Assembly: GCA_009936995.1 (NCBI GenBank)
Contig: JAACDH010000629.1
Coordinates: 1 to 38,605 of the forward strand
Reading direction: 5' to 3'
Source of the DNA: Rhodobacterales bacterium
GTDB taxonomy: Bacteria > Myxococcota_A > UBA796 > GCA-2862545
DNA length: 38,605 nt
Both the position numbers and the translations under genes were made by a program. Positions within the stretch are counted from its first letter, which is position 1. Every line of letters begins with the position of its first letter. Shown one piece after another: positions 285 to 32,590 of the stretch. Under the pieces are notes generated by a model. The model ran no database searches and was not told the DNA's origin. It saw only the letters and a program-made list of their open reading frames with translations.

Positions 285-845
285 TCAGCCCAAATCGACG
301 CCTCGGTGCTGGGCCCAGGACTCGCGGGTGACCTCCCAGCGCTCGCAGTCCGAAACGCCGCTGTGATGGGGCAGCTGGATGTGGTCGACCAAGACTGCGC
401 CTGTCTTCTCTTTTACTCGTCGGCTGGCTACGTTGTTGACGGCGTTGCAAACGAAGATTCGCGGTACCTTGAGATCGAAGAAGACGTAGTCCTGAAAGGC
501 CTCGACCGCCTCGGTCATGTAGCCTTTCCCTTGGTATTCAGTGGAAATCCAAAAGCCTCGATTGTCGGGGAGGTCGTCGCCGACGCGGTATTCGATGAGG
601 CCCACGGCTTCATCGGCCCCATCGAGGATGATGGCCCAGCACATTAACGAGCCGTTGGCCATACCAGGAAGACACACTTGGCGAATGAAGTCGTCCGCGC
701 CGTCCTCGGGGTAAGGCCACGGGACCGCGGTGGAGAGATGCTCGATGATCTCCCACCGCCCGAAGTGTCGCTGGATCGCCGGCGCGTCGGCTTGGTTGAC
801 GGCACGAAGCGTCAGGCGAGCGGTTTGTAGCTTGGGGGTAAGCAT
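285..845 (-). CDS. GNAT-family N-acetyltransferase (RimJ/RimL-like)
   Basis: A 186-residue protein with the layout of the GNAT_3 (RimJ/RimL-type) family. It opens with a TARLTLRAV start of the fold and has a central GLIEYRV strand. The acetyl-CoA pyrophosphate-binding segment reads EYQGKGYMTEAVEAF, and an N-x-A-S-x-R-V-x-E-K-x-G segment follows near the C-terminus, as usual for enzymes that acetylate alpha-amino groups of proteins or small amines. The substrate cannot be told from sequence. Length is normal. The gene is divergent from the selenoprotein peroxiredoxin with only 38 bases between start codons, so the two share a very short promoter region. Family is secure, specific function unknown. 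Confidence 0.88.
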   Translation of the reverse strand: MLTPKLQTARLTLRAVNQADAPAIQRHFGRWEIIEHLSTAVPWPYPEDGADDFIRQVCLPGMANGSLMCWAIILDGADEAVGLIEYRVGDDLPDNRGFWISTEYQGKGYMTEAVEAFQDYVFFDLKVPRIFVCNAVNNVASRRVKEKTGAVLVDHIQLPHHSGVSDCERWEVTRESWAQHRGVDLG

Positions 846-883
846 AGCCGATGATACCCTTGGCTACCTTAAGGAGAAAGTCC

Positions 884-1312
884 ATGCTCGACGTTGGTCA
901 GAAGGCCCCGGATTTCAGTGTGTCCGATCACATTGGGAATACCGTCCACCTCTCGGATTTTTCGGGTAAGAACCTAGTCATTTGGTTCTACCCAAAAGCC
1001 AGCACCGGTGGTTGAACGGTGGAAGGACGCGAGTTTCGCGACCTCATCAGTGACTTTGAAGCGGCCAACACGGCCATCCTCGGCGCAAGCTACGATACGG
1101 TGGCGGAGAATCTTCGTTTTGCCGAAACGAACGAATTTCCTTACCCATTGCTGTCTGACCCCGACCGCACGCTAGCGCCCTACGGCGCTGGCGAGACCGG
1201 AAATGCCAAGCGCATCGGTGTGATCATCAACGGCGAAGGTGTCGTGACCTGGTCCGGCAAGGCGTCGGTTCAGGGATTTGCGGCCGAGGCCTTGGCGCAC
1301 GTCCAGGGCTAG
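884..1312 (+). CDS. Selenocysteine-containing peroxiredoxin (AhpC/BCP type), TGA at 1013-1015 read as Sec
   Basis: A 142-residue thiol peroxidase of the peroxiredoxin fold, expected to reduce H2O2 or organic hydroperoxides in the cytoplasm. ATG 884 has a good ribosome site (AAGGAG at 871-876). The frame runs from residue 1 through a TGA at codon 44 to the stop at 1312. Both sides of the TGA are typical peroxiredoxin: VGQKAPDFSVSD, then LSDFSGKNLVIWFYPKAST, GG-U-TVEGREF, GASYDTVAENLRFAETNEFP, LLSDPDRTLAPYGA and NAKRIGVIING. The TGA sits exactly at the peroxidatic cysteine of the P-x3-T-x2-C motif (Pro37, Thr41, Sec44). The deduced protein has no cysteine, so it would be a one-Sec enzyme needing an external thiol; the Arg in AKRIG may be the conserved active-site Arg. 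A SECIS-like hairpin follows the TGA and selB lies in the same window. Without recoding, only a fragment from GTG 1019 lacking the active site would be made. Confidence 0.9.
1024..1044 (+). promoter_or_regulatory. Bacterial SECIS-like hairpin downstream of the Sec UGA
   Basis: Inside the peroxiredoxin reading frame, arm 1028-1032 (CGCGA) pairs perfectly with 1036-1040 (TCGCG) around a GUU loop (1033-1035). Below an A-A mismatch, 1024-1026 pairs with 1042-1044 (AGG/CCU). The loop G lies 17 nt after the UGA at 1013-1015. Known bacterial SECIS elements lie directly 3' of the UGA, with the apical loop about 16-37 nt away and a G (often GU) in the loop that SelB contacts, so this fits. Not experimentally shown. 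Confidence 0.72.
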
Positions 1313-1330: not shown

Positions 1331-3556
<2,226 letters not shown>

Positions 3557-8542: not shown

Positions 8543-8551
8543 GTGGGAGCC

Positions 8552-9610
8552 ATGCTGAACCTGGTTCACAACCTGCGCGTGTCGCCTCTCTTGCTGCTGT
8601 GCGTCTTCAGCGGGTGTTTTTGGGTGTCGTCCGACAACATCGAATCGCGATGGGACATCGATGGCGACGGTGTCGATCGGCCCGCCGATTGCGACGATGG
8701 AGACGTTGGCGTGGGTGTCATCACCTGGTATGCCGACGTCGATGGGGATGGGCGGGGCGACCCCTTTGCCACCACGACCAGCTGCACGCCGGTGGTGGGG
8801 AGCGTCGAAGACGGCACTGACTGCGACGATTCCGACGACGAAATCTACGCCGGCTCGGTCGAGCGGTGCAATGGTGTCGACGACAACTGCGATGGCGTGG
8901 CTGACGAGGGTCTCACGCTTCCGATCTGGTACCAAGACGTCGATGAAGATGGCTACGGCGATCCCGACGCAGCGGTCGAGGCCTGTCAACAAATGCCCGG
9001 TACCGTCGGCAACGCCGATGACTGCGACGACCTCCTCCCCCAGGTGAACCCCGCCGGTACCGAGATCTGCAACGGCATCGACGACAACTGTCGGGACGGC
9101 ATCGATCTGGACGACCCCTCCCTCGATCCCGCTGGCCACCAGTGGTACCGCGACGCCGACGGCGATGCCTATGGCGACGACCTCAGCGCGGTCGCGAGCT
9201 GCGACGATCCCAGCAGCTTTCCCGCCGAATACGTAGCGCTGCCGGGTGATTGTAACGACGGTGACCCACGTATTCATCCGTTCGCAGGCGATATCTGCGA
9301 AGATTTCGGACCGCAGATCGACAACGACTGTGATGGCAGCACGAGCAATCCTCTGGCGCCGATGTACCTGTACGACCTCGATGGCGACGGCTTTGGAGAC
9401 CCTGGGGTGTTGGTTCCCGCCTGCGAACAGCCGCCCAGCACCGTTCCGCTGACGTCCGTGGTCGACTGCGACGACACCGACGCCTGCATCAACCCCGCTG
9501 CGCTCGAAGTCTGCAACAACGGTATCGACGAGGACTGCGACACCCTGGATGGTACATCTGGCTGTGATACGGCACTAGGAACCGGCGGAACTGGGATGAC
9601 CTGTCCATGA
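8552..9610 (+). CDS. MopE-like 'putative metal-binding motif' lipoprotein
   Basis: A 352-residue exported Asp/Cys-rich protein. ATG 8552 follows a GGTGGGAG ribosome site; an in-frame GTG at 8543 is an alternative. The signal region LLLLCVFSGC has a lipobox with Cys22. The mature part repeats a unit of W/Y-Y-x-D-x-D-x-D-G-x-G-D (about four copies, such as WYQDVDEDGYGDP) followed by D-C-D-D and C-N-G-x-D-D-N-C-D-G motifs, the pattern of the MopE metal-binding-motif family (PF11617), common in Myxococcota surface proteins. The Asp ladders resemble calcium-binding thrombospondin type 3 repeats and the Cys pairs suggest disulfides. Its stop overlaps the next start (ATGA at 9607-9610), so the two are probably translationally coupled. 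Biological role unknown. Confidence 0.9.
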   Translation: MLNLVHNLRVSPLLLLCVFSGCFWVSSDNIESRWDIDGDGVDRPADCDDGDVGVGVITWYADVDGDGRGDPFATTTSCTPVVGSVEDGTDCDDSDDEIYAGSVERCNGVDDNCDGVADEGLTLPIWYQDVDEDGYGDPDAAVEACQQMPGTVGNADDCDDLLPQVNPAGTEICNGIDDNCRDGIDLDDPSLDPAGHQWYRDADGDAYGDDLSAVASCDDPSSFPAEYVALPGDCNDGDPRIHPFAGDICEDFGPQIDNDCDGSTSNPLAPMYLYDLDGDGFGDPGVLVPACEQPPSTVPLTSVVDCDDTDACINPAALEVCNNGIDEDCDTLDGTSGCDTALGTGGTGMTCP

Positions 9611-11772: not shown

Positions 11773-12084
11773 GATTTACCTCTGTGTTTCAGGCAGACTT
11801 CTTAACGTCCTTGGCCCGGGTGGGAAACCATTGTTGAGCGCGGATTCAGTATGGGGCGGTGGTGTCTTGAGGGCCTGAGGCGTTTTTGCCGCTAAAATAT
11901 AGGTGCATACTGGATGAAATGGATGCCTATTATGAAGCCATGGCGATCTCACCGGGTGAAATCATCTCGGTTTTCTGTAAATCGCGTTTCTGCACACTCA
12001 TTCGCTAAATCGCGGCATAGTTTGTGCAGAAGTGAGTTGCGCTGTCCGCTGATCGATCGCATTGTGAGTCTCGGAGGAACTCAA
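11773..12084. other. Divergent intergenic region between gltA and the DUF2330 gene
   Basis: About 310 bases that should hold promoters for both genes. The stretch near 11890-11905 is AT-rich (CTAAAATATAGG), a possible -10 region for the rightward gene, but I see no correctly spaced -35 box. An open frame continues upstream of the DUF2330 start back to 11914, but it lacks coding character and the signal peptide begins at 12085. Nothing else recognised. Confidence 0.4.
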
Positions 12085-13740
12085 ATGCACAATCTCACCC
12101 TGATGCTCTCAACGCTCTTATTCAGCCCGGCTGCCCACGCGTGTGGGAGTCTGTTCTGCGGTCCAACGGATCCGGTCGACCAGGCTGGAGAGAGCATCCT
12201 GTTCGCGGTAGACGAGGACGCCGGCGAGGTCACGGTCCATGTGCAGATTGAGTACGTTGGACCTGCGGAGGAGTTCGCGTGGGTGCTGCCCACTCCGGCT
12301 CAACCCGAGCTGGATATCGGCAACAATGCGGTGTTTGCGGCGCTGGGCAATACCCGGGCGCTCTTCAACCTGAACCAGGACACTGACGGTTGCGCGATTG
12401 CGGACTCCTTTGCATCCTCATCCGCCACAGTCGGTGGCGGTGGCGGTGGCGTCACCATCATCGCGTCGGAAGAAGTTGGACCCTACGAGACGGTCACCAT
12501 GCAAGCGAACAGCAGCGCAGAGCTGCTCACCTGGCTTCAGGACAACAACTTCAACGTGCCGACGGGCATGGATCCGGTCTTGGCGCCGTATGTGGCAGAG
12601 GGTAGCTACTTCGTCGCCCTTCGACTGGCGAAAGACAAGGATGCGGGAGATCTTGAGCCTTTGGTGATGACCTACGCGGGCACTCAGGCCAGCATCCCCA
12701 TCCGGCTGACCAGCCTCGCCGCGACGCCCGATATGCGGCTGCGCGTCTACGTCCTCGGCGACGAGCGGTCTGTGCCCCAGAGCTACCTACATGTGCAGAT
12801 CAACGAGCTGGCCATCGACTGGTGGACCCGGGGAGCCAACCTCGAAGACGTGATCACCCTGGCCGCAGATGAGGCTGGTGGACAGGCGTTCTTCACGGAC
12901 TACAGCGGTCCGACTGATCTGGTTGAGGACCAGGTCTTCCTCGCTGGCTGGGACCAGGCGGATCTTGAGCAAATGCAGGGCGTAGGCTCGTTCTTGCAGC
13001 AGGTGGTGAACTTCAACCTGCCTCTTGAGCCGGCGATGATGGACATCCTGGTGGCGCACACGGGACTTCCGCTCGGGGGTACCGCCATCAACCTCACCGA
13101 CACGTTGAATTGCCTGGCGCCGGGCTACTACGGCTACGCATATTTCGACTACGACGCCGGCGACTGCAACGCCGACTACCTGGCCTCACTGCCCTTCGAC
13201 GCCGTTGCCGCGGCCGCCGACATCGAGATCGACGTCTTGGGGCCCCGTCGACGCGTCGAGGCGTTGTTCGCCAAGTACTCGACCCTCACCCGGATGACGT
13301 CCTCGGTGAGTCCCGTCGACATGACCGTCGACCCCACCTTTGTGTTCAACCCCGACATGGGGCCCGTAGCTCAGACGCGTGAAGCCGACGAGATCTACCA
13401 CTGCGTTGACGGAGATGGGCTGTTCGATGCCGAGCGCACGTTGGTGTTGTCCGACGGTCGCCAGGTCGACCTGCCCTCTCAGAGCGAGCTGAGCCAGCTG
13501 GGCCTCTCCGAGATTGAGTGGCTGGCCGACCATGGACTGACCACGCCGGTCAACGCGGTCATCGAGCGCACGGGGTCCAGCGGTCAGCCCGAAGTGCTCA
13601 CCGACAACCGCGGGCTCCTCGCCGACCAGCTCGAGACGTATCTCACAGAAATTGAAGGGTGTGGTTGCAGCAGCGCACCTACCTCTCAAGGGTGGCTTGT
13701 AATCGGTCTTATCAGCCTGCTTCTCCGTCGCCGCAGCTAG
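12085..13740 (+). CDS. DUF2330 exported protein with MYXO-CTERM-like sorting tail
   Basis: A 551-residue secreted or surface protein. ATG 12085 has a GGAGG ribosome site and opens a signal peptide (MHNLTLMLSTLLFSPAAHAC). The mature start CGSLFCGPTDPVDQAGESIL and the following VHVQIEYVGPAEEFAWVLP are characteristic of DUF2330 (PF10092), found mostly in Myxococcota, Planctomycetes and cyanobacteria, function unknown. The last 27 residues hold a Cys motif (GCGCSSAP), a hydrophobic segment (GWLVIGLISLLL) and an Arg cluster (RRRS). That tripartite signal matches MYXO-CTERM, processed by myxosortase and linked to type II secretion to the cell surface. A poly-Gly stretch near residue 115 is low complexity. 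A lipoprotein gene follows 80 bases on. Confidence 0.9.
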   Translation: MHNLTLMLSTLLFSPAAHACGSLFCGPTDPVDQAGESILFAVDEDAGEVTVHVQIEYVGPAEEFAWVLPTPAQPELDIGNNAVFAALGNTRALFNLNQDTDGCAIADSFASSSATVGGGGGGVTIIASEEVGPYETVTMQANSSAELLTWLQDNNFNVPTGMDPVLAPYVAEGSYFVALRLAKDKDAGDLEPLVMTYAGTQASIPIRLTSLAATPDMRLRVYVLGDERSVPQSYLHVQINELAIDWWTRGANLEDVITLAADEAGGQAFFTDYSGPTDLVEDQVFLAGWDQADLEQMQGVGSFLQQVVNFNLPLEPAMMDILVAHTGLPLGGTAINLTDTLNCLAPGYYGYAYFDYDAGDCNADYLASLPFDAVAAAADIEIDVLGPRRRVEALFAKYSTLTRMTSSVSPVDMTVDPTFVFNPDMGPVAQTREADEIYHCVDGDGLFDAERTLVLSDGRQVDLPSQSELSQLGLSEIEWLADHGLTTPVNAVIERTGSSGQPEVLTDNRGLLADQLETYLTEIEGCGCSSAPTSQGWLVIGLISLLLRRRS

Positions 13741-20817: not shown

Positions 20818-21228
20818 CTAATCGTCGTCAGTGCGACGGTTCATGCGGACCTTTCGCCCGGTTTTTACGCTGACCATGATGTCTTCCATGGAAATGCGGT
20901 TGAAGGGGAAGATGGTCTTGCGAACCTTGGCGCCGCGGAAGGTGCAGCCCTCGATGTTGGCAAAATCTAGATCTGCCTCTTCGAGATTGCATTTATCGAA
21001 GCACGCGTCTTTGCAGTCGGCATGCCACAGCGATGACGCGGTGAGGTCGGTGCCGCGGAACGATGCGCGGGACAAGTTGGCCTCTGCCAGCTTACTGCGA
21101 GCGAGATCGGCACCGTCGAAGCAAACACCAGACAGGTCTACACCACGTAAATCGGTATCGGCGAGGGACTCGCCGCGATTGATGTGGTCTACAACTTGTT
21201 TTTTGGTGAGGGGTCGGGGAGAGCCCAT
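20818..21228 (-). CDS. Pentapeptide-repeat protein
   Basis: A 136-residue protein with consecutive A(D/N)LxX-type repeats between about residues 20 and 105: ADTDLRGVDLSGVCFDGADL, ARSKLAEANLSRASFRGTDL and on through NLEEADLDFANIEGCTFRGA. It should fold as a short right-handed quadrilateral beta-helix of about four coils, then a basic tail. Such proteins range from gyrase protectors to scaffold modules, and the short length gives no clue. Its first 40 bases overlap the 3' end of the ATP-grasp gene in a different frame, indicating translational coupling. Confidence 0.88.
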   Translation of the reverse strand: MGSPRPLTKKQVVDHINRGESLADTDLRGVDLSGVCFDGADLARSKLAEANLSRASFRGTDLTASSLWHADCKDACFDKCNLEEADLDFANIEGCTFRGAKVRKTIFPFNRISMEDIMVSVKTGRKVRMNRRTDDD

Positions 21229-22187
21229 GGTGTCCTCTGAACCTCGATCGGCTTGGTAAGTCGGTCGAGTATGATGTCGGAGAGTTGAGTTCCGTGTAGT
21301 CGGTCAGCGTGGTAGGTGCCGCCCGGATTGAGGGCATTTACCTCGATAATCTGTGCGCCGATAACGTCGAGTCCAGCCAGGCGGATGCCCAGTTTCAGGA
21401 GCGCGGGGGTGAGCTTGGCCACTGCCTTGTGTTCGAGGTCGGTGACCTCGGTGGGCAGGGGATCGGCGCCGCGCTTCAGGTTGTGCCTGAACTCTCCAGG
21501 CGCACGCTTTCGCAGGTAGCCTCCGATGACCTGTCCGTCCAGCCAGAGAAGTCGCTTCTCTCCGTCGTCGGCGGCTGGCAGATACGCCTGAACCACGACG
21601 TAGCCAGCATTTACGCCCCTCGCGATGTCGAATGCAGTATCTAGCCCCGCGTCATCTTCGTGTTGGACGAGGGATACCGCGTAGCCTCCACTGCCTCGGG
21701 CGGGCTTGATCACAACGCCGTGGGATTGCTCGGCGGCGAAGAGATGGGCGGTGGCACGGCTGCGGGTGACCAGGGTGGCGGGGGTGGGCACGTCCCGTAG
21801 AGATCCGAGCCAGCCTTTGTGCGAGACCTGCATCAGGCCAGCGGGGTTGTTCACCACATTCACGCCGCGCCCCGACGCCATCTGGGCGAAGCTCATGACG
21901 TCGCGATCCCAAGGTGCCGTACGCAGCATCAACAGGTCGAGGGCGTCGACGTTTACAAAGCGCCGGTCGGCCATTCGGTGGGCCAGTATGCTGGCGATCT
22001 CGTCGGCTGAACCGTAGGTGTCGATGGCGTGGGCGCGAGCGACCATTTTACCGGATTCGATCTGCCAGTCCCACGGTTCGATGAGTCGAACGCTCCACCC
22101 ACGACGCAGCGCAGCCTGGACCAAGGCGATGGTGGTCCAGGAGGCGTTCATGGCGCTTGCGCGTCCGATGGCCATTCCGATTCGCAT
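21189..22187 (-). CDS. ATP-grasp ligase resembling glutathione synthetase
   Basis: A 332-residue enzyme with the three parts of a prokaryotic GshB/RimK-like ATP-grasp protein. The N-terminal domain includes LLMLRTAPWDRDVMSFAQMA and a VVNNPAGL loop as in GshB. The ATP-binding region has VVIKPARGSGGYAV, then GEKRLLWLDGQVIGGYLRKR with APGEFRHNLKRGA. The metal-binding end is IIEVNALNPGGTYHAD, slightly altered from the usual E-V-N-x-x-S-P. It should join a carboxylate to an amine, glutathione synthesis being the best-known case, but no gshA is nearby, so the substrate is open. It is divergent from gpsA by 53 bases and coupled to the pentapeptide gene. Confidence 0.85.
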   Translation of the reverse strand: MRIGMAIGRASAMNASWTTIALVQAALRRGWSVRLIEPWDWQIESGKMVARAHAIDTYGSADEIASILAHRMADRRFVNVDALDLLMLRTAPWDRDVMSFAQMASGRGVNVVNNPAGLMQVSHKGWLGSLRDVPTPATLVTRSRATAHLFAAEQSHGVVIKPARGSGGYAVSLVQHEDDAGLDTAFDIARGVNAGYVVVQAYLPAADDGEKRLLWLDGQVIGGYLRKRAPGEFRHNLKRGADPLPTEVTDLEHKAVAKLTPALLKLGIRLAGLDVIGAQIIEVNALNPGGTYHADRLHGTQLSDIILDRLTKPIEVQRTPWALPDPSPKNKL

Positions 22188-29783: not shown

Positions 29784-30743
29784 ATGCGCCTTGCTACCCC
29801 TGTCATCTCTGTTCGCGGTCTGAGTCGGACGTTTGGAGACCGCATCGCACTACAGTCGTTAGACTTTCAGATGGGTCTTGGCGAAGTCGTGGCGCTGCTG
29901 GGGCCGAATGGTGCGGGGAAGTCCACGTGCATGAAGGTGCTGACGGGCTACCTGGCGCCTTCGGCCGGCACCGTCGAAGTCTGCGGTGTAAACCTACTTA
30001 CCCATCCGCAACAGGCGCAGCAGCATCTGGGCTACTTGCCCGAGCATGCGCCGGCGGATGACGACGTGACCGTTCGGGCGTGGCTGCATTTCGCGGGGCG
30101 GGTTCGCGGTCTGGGCACGTCGGAGCGCGCTCGCGCTATCGAGCGAGTGACGGAGAGCTGCGATCTAACCGACCGGCTCGGTCAGATGATTGGGACGCTT
30201 TCCCGAGGGTATCGACAACGAGTTGGTTTAGCGAGCGCGCTGTTGCATAACCCCACAGTGCTGATTCTCGACGAGCCCACCACCGGCCTGGACCCCAATC
30301 AAATCGCCGAGATTCGCTCCGTTATCCGGCAAATTGGCGAGCGGCGCACGGTCATCTTGAGCACCCACGTGCTCTCCGAGGTGCAGGCGCTGTGCGATCG
30401 GGCGCTGGTGCTGCATCAAGGGCGTCTGGTCGCCGATCGAGATGTGCAGTCCTTGTCCGAAGAGGGGGATGGTCAGCGGCTTACACTGGGTCTTGGACAC
30501 GGCAAAGTGCAGATCGCCCAGGCCGAGCTCCTCCGTCAATTGGGCCAGCTGGAGGGTGTGCAGAAGGTCCACCTGGCGACCGCCGTCGATGAGGCCCATC
30601 GTGTGCAGCTACAGTCTCGGACGGATATTCGCGAAACCGTGTATCGCTGGGCGGTAAATGGGGGGCATGTGCTGGTGCACCTCGATATTCAGCATCAGCG
30701 TCTGGAAGAGGTCTTTCGGCAGCTCACCAAGGAGAACTCATGA
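29784..30743 (+). CDS. ABC transporter ATP-binding protein (GldA/ABC-2 export type)
   Basis: A 319-residue nucleotide-binding subunit. Walker A GPNGAGKST lies at about 38-46, the Q-loop region is YLPEHAPADDDVTV, the signature is LSRGYRQRVGLASAL and Walker B is VLILDEPTTGLDP, followed by the H-loop STHVLSEV. The PEHxPxxxDxTV segment and the extended C-terminus place it near the GldA and ABC-2 groups, which power export or gliding. No permease is adjacent: the next gene, overlapping by ATGA, is selB. The membrane partner must be encoded elsewhere or upstream of its own operon. Confidence 0.92.
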   Translation: MRLATPVISVRGLSRTFGDRIALQSLDFQMGLGEVVALLGPNGAGKSTCMKVLTGYLAPSAGTVEVCGVNLLTHPQQAQQHLGYLPEHAPADDDVTVRAWLHFAGRVRGLGTSERARAIERVTESCDLTDRLGQMIGTLSRGYRQRVGLASALLHNPTVLILDEPTTGLDPNQIAEIRSVIRQIGERRTVILSTHVLSEVQALCDRALVLHQGRLVADRDVQSLSEEGDGQRLTLGLGHGKVQIAQAELLRQLGQLEGVQKVHLATAVDEAHRVQLQSRTDIRETVYRWAVNGGHVLVHLDIQHQRLEEVFRQLTKENS

Positions 30744-32590
30744 GCGCAGGGCGCGGCCTAGTGGTCGGCACAGCGGGGCATATCGACCACGGGAAAACTT
30801 CTATGGTGCGGTCGTTGACGGGTGTGAACCTCGATCAACTCCCCGAAGAGCAGGCCCGAGGCATTACCATTGCGCTTGGGTTCACGGCGTTGGACTTGCC
30901 CACTGGCCGCCGGACCGCGTTCGTGGATTGTCCGGGTCATGAGCGTCTGGTTCGGACGATGGTGGCGGGGGCGACCGGGATCGACGCCGTGTTGCTCTGT
31001 GTCTCGGCCACCGATGGCATGATGCCTCAGACCCGTGAGCACTTGGCGATTCTTCAGCTGCTCGGATTGAGAACGGGCGCAGTGGTGCTCACCATGGCCG
31101 ATCTCGTCGACGAGGAGATGCTCGAGCTGTGCCTGGAAGACGTGGCCGAAGGTGTCGCGGGTACCTTCCTTGAAGGTGCACCTGTCGTGGCCTTCTCCGC
31201 GGTGACGGATGTCGGAAAGCAAGCGCTCATCGACGTGATCGACGCCTTCCCCGACACAGACAGAGGCGAGGACGGCCCGTTTCGACTGCCGGTTGACCGA
31301 ACCTTCGTCCGCGACGGCTTTGGCACGGTCGTCACCGGGACCACCTGGTCGGGCACCCTCAAAGACGGCGCCACTGTGCGCCTGCTTCCCGGCGACCAAA
31401 CGGCCCGAGTTCGCGGCATTCAGAGCCATGGACTGGCGTCGGGTGTGGCCACGTCTGGCGCTCGAACCGCGCTGAACTTGGCGGGCGTCGACCGCGATCA
31501 AGTGCCTCGGGGAACGGTGATCAGCGACGCCGAGCTGCCCTGTCCGCACATGATCGACGTGATGTACCGGCACCTTTCGTCCGCGCCTCCGTTGGAGGAT
31601 GGCAGCCCGGTCCGCGTGTTGTTGGGGACCAGCGAGTGCATGGGCCGCATCCACGCCGCGGCTGACCTCGACGTCTTCGCGCCCGGTGTGGCGAAGCCCG
31701 CGCAGATCCGTCTCGAAGCTCCGCTTCCCTGCCTCCCCGGTGACCGCTTCATTCTCCGTCGGACCAGCCCCATGGAGACGTTGGGCGGTGGAGAGATCCT
31801 CGACCCGTGGACCGTGAAGATGCGGCGAAAGAACCGGATCGCCTGGGGGGGCCAGCTGAAGCGCTTGGCCGCGGGCGACCCGTTGGTGTGGCTGGAGCGC
31901 GCCGGAGAGGAGGGCCTCGATCCAAAAGACTGGAAGCGACGGAGCGGAGACACCGAGAAAGCGTTGATGCTGGGCGGCCGGAGTTTTGCGCCGCGAATTG
32001 TGGGTCGACTCGAGGGCGTACTGCTGGAGTCCTTGGGTGCGTTCCACCTGGCCCAACCCATGGCGCTGGGGGCGCAGCGGCGAGAGTTGAGGCGGGCTCG
32101 CTTGGGAGATCTAGATGAGCGGGTCTTTGATGCCCTGGTGGAACGACTCTCCAGCGCCAACACCGTGTTGGTGGATGGCCCCATGGTCCGGGTGCGGGGC
32201 TTCGAGTTAGCGCTGACGCCCGCACAAGCGCGCTTGAAGAAGACCATCCAAGAGACGATTCACGCCGCTGGCCTGGACGGCCTGAAGCCCAAAGATCTAC
32301 ACGAGGTGCACAAGGACGACGAGGTGGCCGCGCTCCTTCGCTTGATCGAGGCCGAGGACTTCGCGCAGCAGACCGCTGGTTTGGGATGGATCTCCCGAGA
32401 TGCTCGGAACGAACTGCGAACCAAGCTCCAGGGTTGGTTGCAGGACCACGCCACCCTCAAGCCCGGCGACTTCAAAGCGCTCACCGGACTCACCCGTCGG
32501 GCGGCCATTCCGCTGATGGAGTACAGCGACGGCTTAAAGTGGACGGTTCGGGCGGCGGATGGGCGGGTGCCGGGGCCAGCGTTGGTCTGA
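30740..32590 (+). CDS. selB: Selenocysteine-specific elongation factor SelB
   Basis: A 616-residue GTPase that delivers Sec-tRNA(Sec) to UGA codons by binding the SECIS element. G1 is GTAGHIDHGKTS (10-21), switch I RGITIALGF (40-48), and G3 DCPGHE (63-68), the SelB-typical set. The guanine-specificity motif reads TMADLVDE where TKAD or NKxD is usual. EF-Tu-like domains 2 and 3 follow (FVRDGFGTVVTGT), then winged-helix repeats. The last (LKPGDFKALTGLTRRAAIPLMEYSDG) matches the WH4 SECIS-binding end, so the protein is complete. ATG 30740 has AAGGAG and overlaps the ABC stop. No selA, selC or selD is in the window. The peroxiredoxin at 884-1312 is a probable client. Confidence 0.97.
   Translation: MSAGRGLVVGTAGHIDHGKTSMVRSLTGVNLDQLPEEQARGITIALGFTALDLPTGRRTAFVDCPGHERLVRTMVAGATGIDAVLLCVSATDGMMPQTREHLAILQLLGLRTGAVVLTMADLVDEEMLELCLEDVAEGVAGTFLEGAPVVAFSAVTDVGKQALIDVIDAFPDTDRGEDGPFRLPVDRTFVRDGFGTVVTGTTWSGTLKDGATVRLLPGDQTARVRGIQSHGLASGVATSGARTALNLAGVDRDQVPRGTVISDAELPCPHMIDVMYRHLSSAPPLEDGSPVRVLLGTSECMGRIHAAADLDVFAPGVAKPAQIRLEAPLPCLPGDRFILRRTSPMETLGGGEILDPWTVKMRRKNRIAWGGQLKRLAAGDPLVWLERAGEEGLDPKDWKRRSGDTEKALMLGGRSFAPRIVGRLEGVLLESLGAFHLAQPMALGAQRRELRRARLGDLDERVFDALVERLSSANTVLVDGPMVRVRGFELALTPAQARLKKTIQETIHAAGLDGLKPKDLHEVHKDDEVAALLRLIEAEDFAQQTAGLGWISRDARNELRTKLQGWLQDHATLKPGDFKALTGLTRRAAIPLMEYSDGLKWTVRAADGRVPGPALV

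Follow-up and report, generated by a model that had tools for sequence, protein, structure and literature searches.

Bacterial peroxiredoxins containing selenocysteine (Sec) were described in 2005 under COG1225, as 43 sequences with the motif TxxU from the Sargasso Sea set (PMC1088965), and a listing from 2006 includes three from Anaeromyxobacter (PMC1794560). A 2026 review also lists them, in a main text that contains no word beginning with "Myxococc" (PMC13188914). The bSECIS model given in that review places the loop of the hairpin 16-37 nt after the UGA, with a G in the first two loop positions. In peroxiredoxins of the PrxQ/BCP group, a Gly directly precedes the peroxidatic residue (PMC5302317). 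In one paper collection searched for Sec peroxiredoxins, bacterial SECIS elements, selenoproteins of Myxococcota and forms free of a resolving Cys, no Cys-free form was found in the titles and abstract openings of the matches listed.

The gene described here belongs to this known type of enzyme and, since Sec peroxiredoxins of the same COG have been known since 2005, is in itself less surprising than an earlier, sequence-only reading had held. What sets it apart is that this form is free of Cys, and that its RNA signal has largely been kept while the resolving Cys has been lost; it is a variant, not a unique case. It has in common with the bacterial Sec peroxiredoxins of COG1225 (the same COG by name alone) a Sec in P-x3-T-x2-U and a hairpin after the UGA. 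Its near relatives carry a Cys five residues after the Sec, whereas here that residue is an Arg (R49) and the protein has no Cys at all.

The window, i.e. the whole stretch of 38,605 nt that was analysed, belongs to a genome assembly of 5.6 Mb in 724 contigs, rated 78% complete. A MYXO-CTERM domain encoded in it suggests a member of the Myxococcota. The features discussed are collected in Table 1. Judging from its sequence, the peroxiredoxin locus is probably a real and functional selenoprotein gene. The sequence-only reading had claimed one frame from an ATG with a ribosome-binding site, broken only by a TGA at codon 44 that falls on the peroxidatic position, with peroxiredoxin-like sequence on both sides and a product without Cys, and all of this was borne out. 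The product, with Sec at the TGA, is 142 residues long and contains a single U and zero C. The Pfam AhpC-TSA match (residues 4-123, E 3.6e-29, 101.7 bits) spans the TGA, so both sides are parts of one protein; Redoxin is matched as well (Pfam, E 4.4e-15). In a 10-row alignment P37, T41, position 44 and R110, which we take by homology to be the active-site Arg, are invariant, and the in-frame TGA is aligned with the catalytic Cys of homologues. G43 is also invariant, which places a Gly directly before the peroxidatic residue as in PrxQ/BCP. A GTG, from which the sequence-only reading had expected a truncated redoxin to be annotated, does lie downstream of the TGA at 1019.

Table 1. Position of the features in the window
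Feature	Position	Strand	Remarks
GNAT acetyltransferase	285..845	-	divergent neighbour
AAGGAG ribosome-binding site	871..876	+	read in the sequence; 7-nt spacer to ATG 884-886
Probable Sec-containing, Cys-free peroxiredoxin, PrxQ/BCP type	884..1312	+	142 aa; TAG stop 1310-1312
In-frame TGA, codon 44	1013..1015	+	peroxidatic position; predicted to be read as Sec; relatives have TGA at the same codon
Bacterial SECIS-like hairpin	1025..1043	+	5' arm 1025-1032, apical loop GUU 1033-1035, 3' arm 1036-1043; 7 of 8 pairs, one A.A mismatch
Codon 49, CGC (Arg)	1028..1030	+	TGC (resolving Cys) in the near clade; within the 5' arm of the hairpin
Codon 110, conserved Arg	1211..1213	+	invariant R110 in the alignment
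Monomeric isocitrate dehydrogenase	1331..3556	-	convergent neighbour
Protein with four MopE copper-binding motif matches	8543..9610	+	PF11617
MYXO-CTERM domain	within 11914..13740
Glutathione-synthetase-like gene	21189..22187		below curated cut-offs
selB, selenocysteine-specific elongation factor	30740..32590	+	616 aa; TIGR00475, 289.9 bits (cut-off 242.25); same contig as the peroxiredoxin

With its AhpC-TSA fold, the P-x3-T-x2-(C/U) motif and the conserved Arg, the protein falls within PrxQ/BCP. It shares the fold and catalytic residues of the Cys enzymes of this group, differing from them in having Sec for Cys and from the longer forms in having about eight residues fewer before the conserved Arg. 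An AlphaFold model built with 11 relatives, Sec being modelled as Cys, reached a mean pLDDT of 96.5 and a pTM of 0.91, and its best fold matches in the PDB by Foldseek were BCP/PrxQ structures (9a4d_B, 5enu, 3hjp). By sequence, too, the solved relatives are mostly BCP-type peroxiredoxins, with 5enu best at 4.7e-20. The NCBIfam models of two equivalogs were matched below their cut-offs, BCP (NF006960) with 86.8 bits against 140 and PrxU (NF040737) with 33.6 bits against 270. With R49 and zero Cys, the protein has neither of the features that mark an atypical 2-Cys PrxQ, a Cys five residues on or another Cys. Its redox centre lies at the same place as in PrxU and in 1-Cys peroxiredoxins such as AhpE, which is among the fold matches; AhpE, however, uses Cys where the window gene has the predicted Sec.

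The UGA at codon 44 is very probably read as Sec, an insertion that would depend on SelB, tRNA-Sec and the hairpin that follows. From the sequence we consider it quite likely that the product is a cytosolic Sec peroxidase of the PrxQ/BCP group which works by a 1-Sec mechanism and is regenerated by an outside thiol. The cytosolic location is suggested by the N-terminus, where no extension was seen. In such a cycle the Sec44 selenolate, positioned by P37, T41 and R110, would attack H2O2 or a small hydroperoxide and become a selenenic acid. An internal selenenylsulfide would be impossible, as the resolving Cys is an Arg and there is no other Cys; with no thiol in the chain, the selenenic acid would need reduction from outside. 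The reductant might be a small thiol, such as glutathione, or else a glutaredoxin or a thioredoxin, much as 1-Cys peroxiredoxins and glutathione peroxidases are regenerated. Two matches to the GCS2 family in the genome are above cut-off, and the glutathione-synthetase-like gene in the window stays below the curated cut-offs (176.6 against 408, 164 against 272 and 151.1 against 299). Glutathione is a possible reductant, with glutaredoxin or thioredoxin equally open.

The lack of an internal thiol to complete the cycle would also suit a peroxide sensor or a chaperone that passes its oxidation on to a partner instead of turning over as a peroxidase, and chaperone roles of peroxiredoxins have been reported (PMC6590489, PMC4416765). 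This strikes us as unlikely, since neither a fused nor a co-directed partner gene is present: on one side lies a GNAT acetyltransferase gene in divergent orientation, on the other a convergent one for a monomeric isocitrate dehydrogenase. Moreover, outside thiols sustain the turnover of 1-Cys peroxiredoxins and glutathione peroxidases.

The closest of 93 relatives are L030 (55% identity, no stop), L031 (53%, TGA) and L032 (48%, TGA); no further genome of the same genus was returned, the nearest relatives being 48-55% identical. The TGA is found at the same codon in homologues from other genomes of the class and the phylum, and in a second, separate peroxiredoxin of the same genome, which goes beyond chance. 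It is present in 94 distinct peroxiredoxin rows, all of which match the window protein with E 2.3e-15 or better; these Sec rows were collected by similarity and pattern, and shares among them are no census. L115, with two hairpin pairs, was dropped from this set by the filter. A scan of 377 genomes of the phylum, using a pattern in which codon 49 was unconstrained, gave matches in 81.

In a tree of 68 rows the window lies in a clade dominated by Sec (37 rows, 36 Sec and 1 Cys, support 99/95), and within it in a subclade with L157, L160, L030, L031 and L032 (support 99/88), where its exact sister is unsure (93/57). The sole Cys member of the clade is L030 (1492-1935, genome G066; same gene in L153), which provides the orthologue with TGC at codon 44 that had been looked for. 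The family hairpin is almost complete in L030, with 7 of 8 pairs and an AUU loop, and the genome of L030 has SelB; the sequence suggests that Sec has reverted to Cys here and left a relic of its signal. A second clade of Sec peroxiredoxins comprises L003 and 53 other loci (54 rows, support 100/100), with N-terminal extensions that are lipoprotein-like in L003. In this clade the 19-nt hairpin is almost frozen at the nucleotide level over dozens of genomes. Another Sec peroxiredoxin, L159 (G270:C309), has two TGA codons listed in its frame.

Five residues after the Sec, the 94 rows have 72 Cys, 7 Arg, 4 Asn, 4 His, 3 Gln, 2 Lys, 1 Leu and 1 Ser. A scan of the class, in which one of 56 matches lacked the resolving Cys, had raised the idea that the window held the only Sec peroxiredoxin of this kind; this was rejected, as 22 of the 94 rows lack it. 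They include L117 and L118, both of the same order, as well as L113, L159, L162, L163, L170 and L197. Among the matches in the 377 phylum genomes, 17 of 91, counted by eye, are without Cys at codon 49. On the tree the 22 rows amount to 9 changes, at least 6 of them forced by well-supported branches. In the window the loss is secondary, because the five other rows of its subclade keep the Cys. Six of the 22 have another Cys at LLCD, where the window has Ser, and seven of the 94 rows, the window included, have no Cys at all from 43 residues before the Sec to the stop. The loss extends beyond Sec forms: of the 27 Cys peroxiredoxins sampled, 8 are also without the resolving Cys. Cys PrxQ enzymes can work without a resolving Cys.

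The codon of the resolving Cys lies in the 5' arm of the hairpin that follows the TGA, and 7 of 8 pairs remain with the Arg of the window in its place. The class was scanned with a pattern of fixed GG-TGA-AC, (G/C)A(G/A)GG and T(A/T)(C/T)CGNGA with seven free bases between, which gave 56 matches in 49 of 71 genomes and 0 in the reversed control. The sequence GGTTGCGGGT(A/T)CCGCGA is read in 55 of the matches; the window alone differs, with GGACGCGAGTTTCGCGA. Compared with the family form, an 8-pair stem with loop GU(A/U), the window has exchanged U.G for C-G through the change from Cys to Arg, and the closing G-C pair for A-U through a change from Gly to Glu and a change to TTT. In addition, a synonymous change in a Gly codon has turned U-A into A.A, which breaks one pair. 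The hairpin energy is -7.2 kcal/mol, against -11.9 for the family form. Both the Glu and the A-U closing pair of the window are already present in L157. In L161, L164 and L165 the closing pair is C-G, not G-C, and Gly has become Ala in the protein, a double-sided change. The Sec peroxiredoxins L117 and L118 fall outside the pattern and have a different hairpin. The same family 5' arm is present in 68 of the 94 Sec rows, and 8 pairs can form in 71 of them, 7 in 9, 6 in 10 and 5 or fewer in 4 (in this register L025 has 5, L158 and L163 have 4 and L113 has 3).

At 17 nt after the UGA, and with G and U as its first two bases, the loop GUU of the window falls within the published bSECIS geometry. 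No Rfam match was obtained in the window at gathering scores. Taken alone the hairpin is not significant: of 20000 synonymous recodings, 2716 also form 7 pairs and 1948 equal its energy, and 26 of 200 shuffles fold as well (z -1.04). The case for it therefore rests on its register and on covariation in the family. Over 72 distinct sequences, 92.5% of cells in the family stem are paired (87.6 when shuffled), both sides have changed in 21 cells (2.6 shuffled) and at 4 pairs (1.5 shuffled), and the covariation score is 0.186 against 0.098 for shuffles, which do not correct for relatedness. None of 500 shuffles reaches the observed cells, types or score, and three reach the 4 pairs. The named stem also beats versions slid along the sequence on cells paired, double-change cells and score; a slide of +3 has more double-change pairs (5) and 13 pair types against 9, and a slide of +2 equals the 4 pairs. 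With the codon usage of the window applied to all, 21 of 24 distinct Sec 19-mers exceed the synonymous expectation (mean +1.09 pairs), as do 19 of 27 Cys homologues (mean +0.26 pairs). The contrast between Sec and Cys homologues is thus one of degree.

With its resolving Cys and one pair of the hairpin gone, the gene might be decaying towards a pseudogene in which the UGA now mostly terminates. Several features speak for this: its hairpin is weaker than the family form and is the sole departure from a frozen sequence among the class matches, its terminal branch is fairly long (0.87 against a median of 0.4), and 11 of 58 columns invariant in the three nearest relatives have changed (47 are kept), including P42, C49 and G50 near the active site. 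The frame of 142 codons is nevertheless intact with all four catalytic residues, and 18 of the 19 columns that are invariant in the other nine rows of the wider alignment are kept. Downstream of the TGA the coding signal is highest in the true frame (0.246); in the short upstream part one antisense frame is slightly higher (0.178 against 0.154 for the true frame). Against decay, too, the closing pair was swapped for another standard pair, and 21 other Sec rows are also without the resolving Cys. We regard decay as improbable, more so than a sensor or chaperone role. A check of homologues for signs of a pseudogene found the frame intact and conserved, with TGA or, in L030, TGC at codon 44.

A functional Sec peroxidase, as the sequence-only reading had proposed, agrees with this intact and conserved frame and with the Sec machinery of the genome; Sec insertion and activity are both predicted. 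The earlier claim would have fallen with the absence of selA, selC and selD; all three are present above curated cut-offs, as is selB, so that the genome has the full set. Contig C692 carries selA (499.6 bits, cut-off 267.9), C320 selD (352 bits, cut-off 125) and C243 the tRNA-Sec gene selC (62.6 bits, gathering score 47), which ARAGORN also calls as SeC with a TCA anticodon. The C-terminus of SelB has two winged-helix domains (Pfam SelB-wing_2 and SelB-wing_3), and the protein is 63% identical to SelB of one genome of the same family. Among 14 control genomes, selC was above cut-off in 5, selA in 1, selB in 2 and selD in 2, while SelB was above cut-off in all 8 checked genomes with near relatives of the peroxiredoxin. 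The possibility of a contaminated bin was also considered: in tetranucleotide make-up the selA, selC, selD and C609 stretches agree with the window at r 0.90-0.96; the window's own 4-kb pieces agree at 0.88-0.95. This ties the sel contigs to the window only weakly, because one genome of the same family also reaches 0.89. For selB no such link is needed, as it is on the window's own contig.

Of 58 genomes counted by eye, 47 have a SelB match of E 1e-100 or better, and 36 of these contain the Sec-peroxiredoxin pattern, as do 7 of the other 11; this gives no clear association. Two of the latter 7 have C-terminal pieces of SelB, and the genomes are fragmented, but one (G054) is rated 93% complete.

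Further candidate selenoproteins are found in the same genome. The selD gene (G000:C320, L120) carries an in-frame TGA of its own in the motif SAGUAAKL, and SelD itself is probably a selenoprotein. Contig C609 carries the second peroxiredoxin with TGA at the same codon (L003), and a lipoprotein-like N-terminus comes before it in the same frame. On C607 (G000, L004) there is a peroxiredoxin-like protein with a U-x2-C motif (GHWUPYC), which resembles the known peroxiredoxin-like thiol:disulfide oxidoreductase selenoproteins. In the window TGA ends 3 of 12 genes with family matches and is therefore an ordinary stop and no general sense codon.

The TGA at codon 44 comes from a single draft assembly of partial completeness, but it is most improbable that TGC or TGG was misread here in sequencing or assembly, or that the codon stands for a residue other than Sec. 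Many separate genomes share the TGA at this position, mostly with the family hairpin after it, the full Sec machinery is present, and TGA is used as a stop elsewhere in the window. The near relative L030 has TGC there, which points to Cys as the equivalent.

For the family of Sec peroxiredoxins, we tentatively suggest that the location of the resolving-Cys codon inside the bSECIS hairpin may have shaped its fate. Once Sec had taken over, the Cys may have become dispensable and been replaced repeatedly (by Arg, Lys, Asn, Gln, His, Leu or Ser) through substitutions that the hairpin allowed or compensated. A PrxQ would thereby have turned into a glutathione-peroxidase-like, single-selenium, thiol-free enzyme, of which the window gene may be an end point. 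Neither this link between hairpin and resolving Cys nor a Cys-free form is described in the available portions of PMC1088965, PMC1794560 and PMC13188914. A gene finder that treats TGA as a stop would shorten many Sec peroxiredoxin genes in the phylum, where the pattern occurs in 81 of 377 genomes. If the proposed history is true, two codes, one for a redox residue and one for the insertion of Sec, share the same short piece of mRNA, and nature has removed the redox code while largely keeping the Sec signal. Two questions would then become testable: how far SelB tolerates changes of sequence in the hairpin, and whether a peroxiredoxin with selenium can dispense with its resolving Cys.
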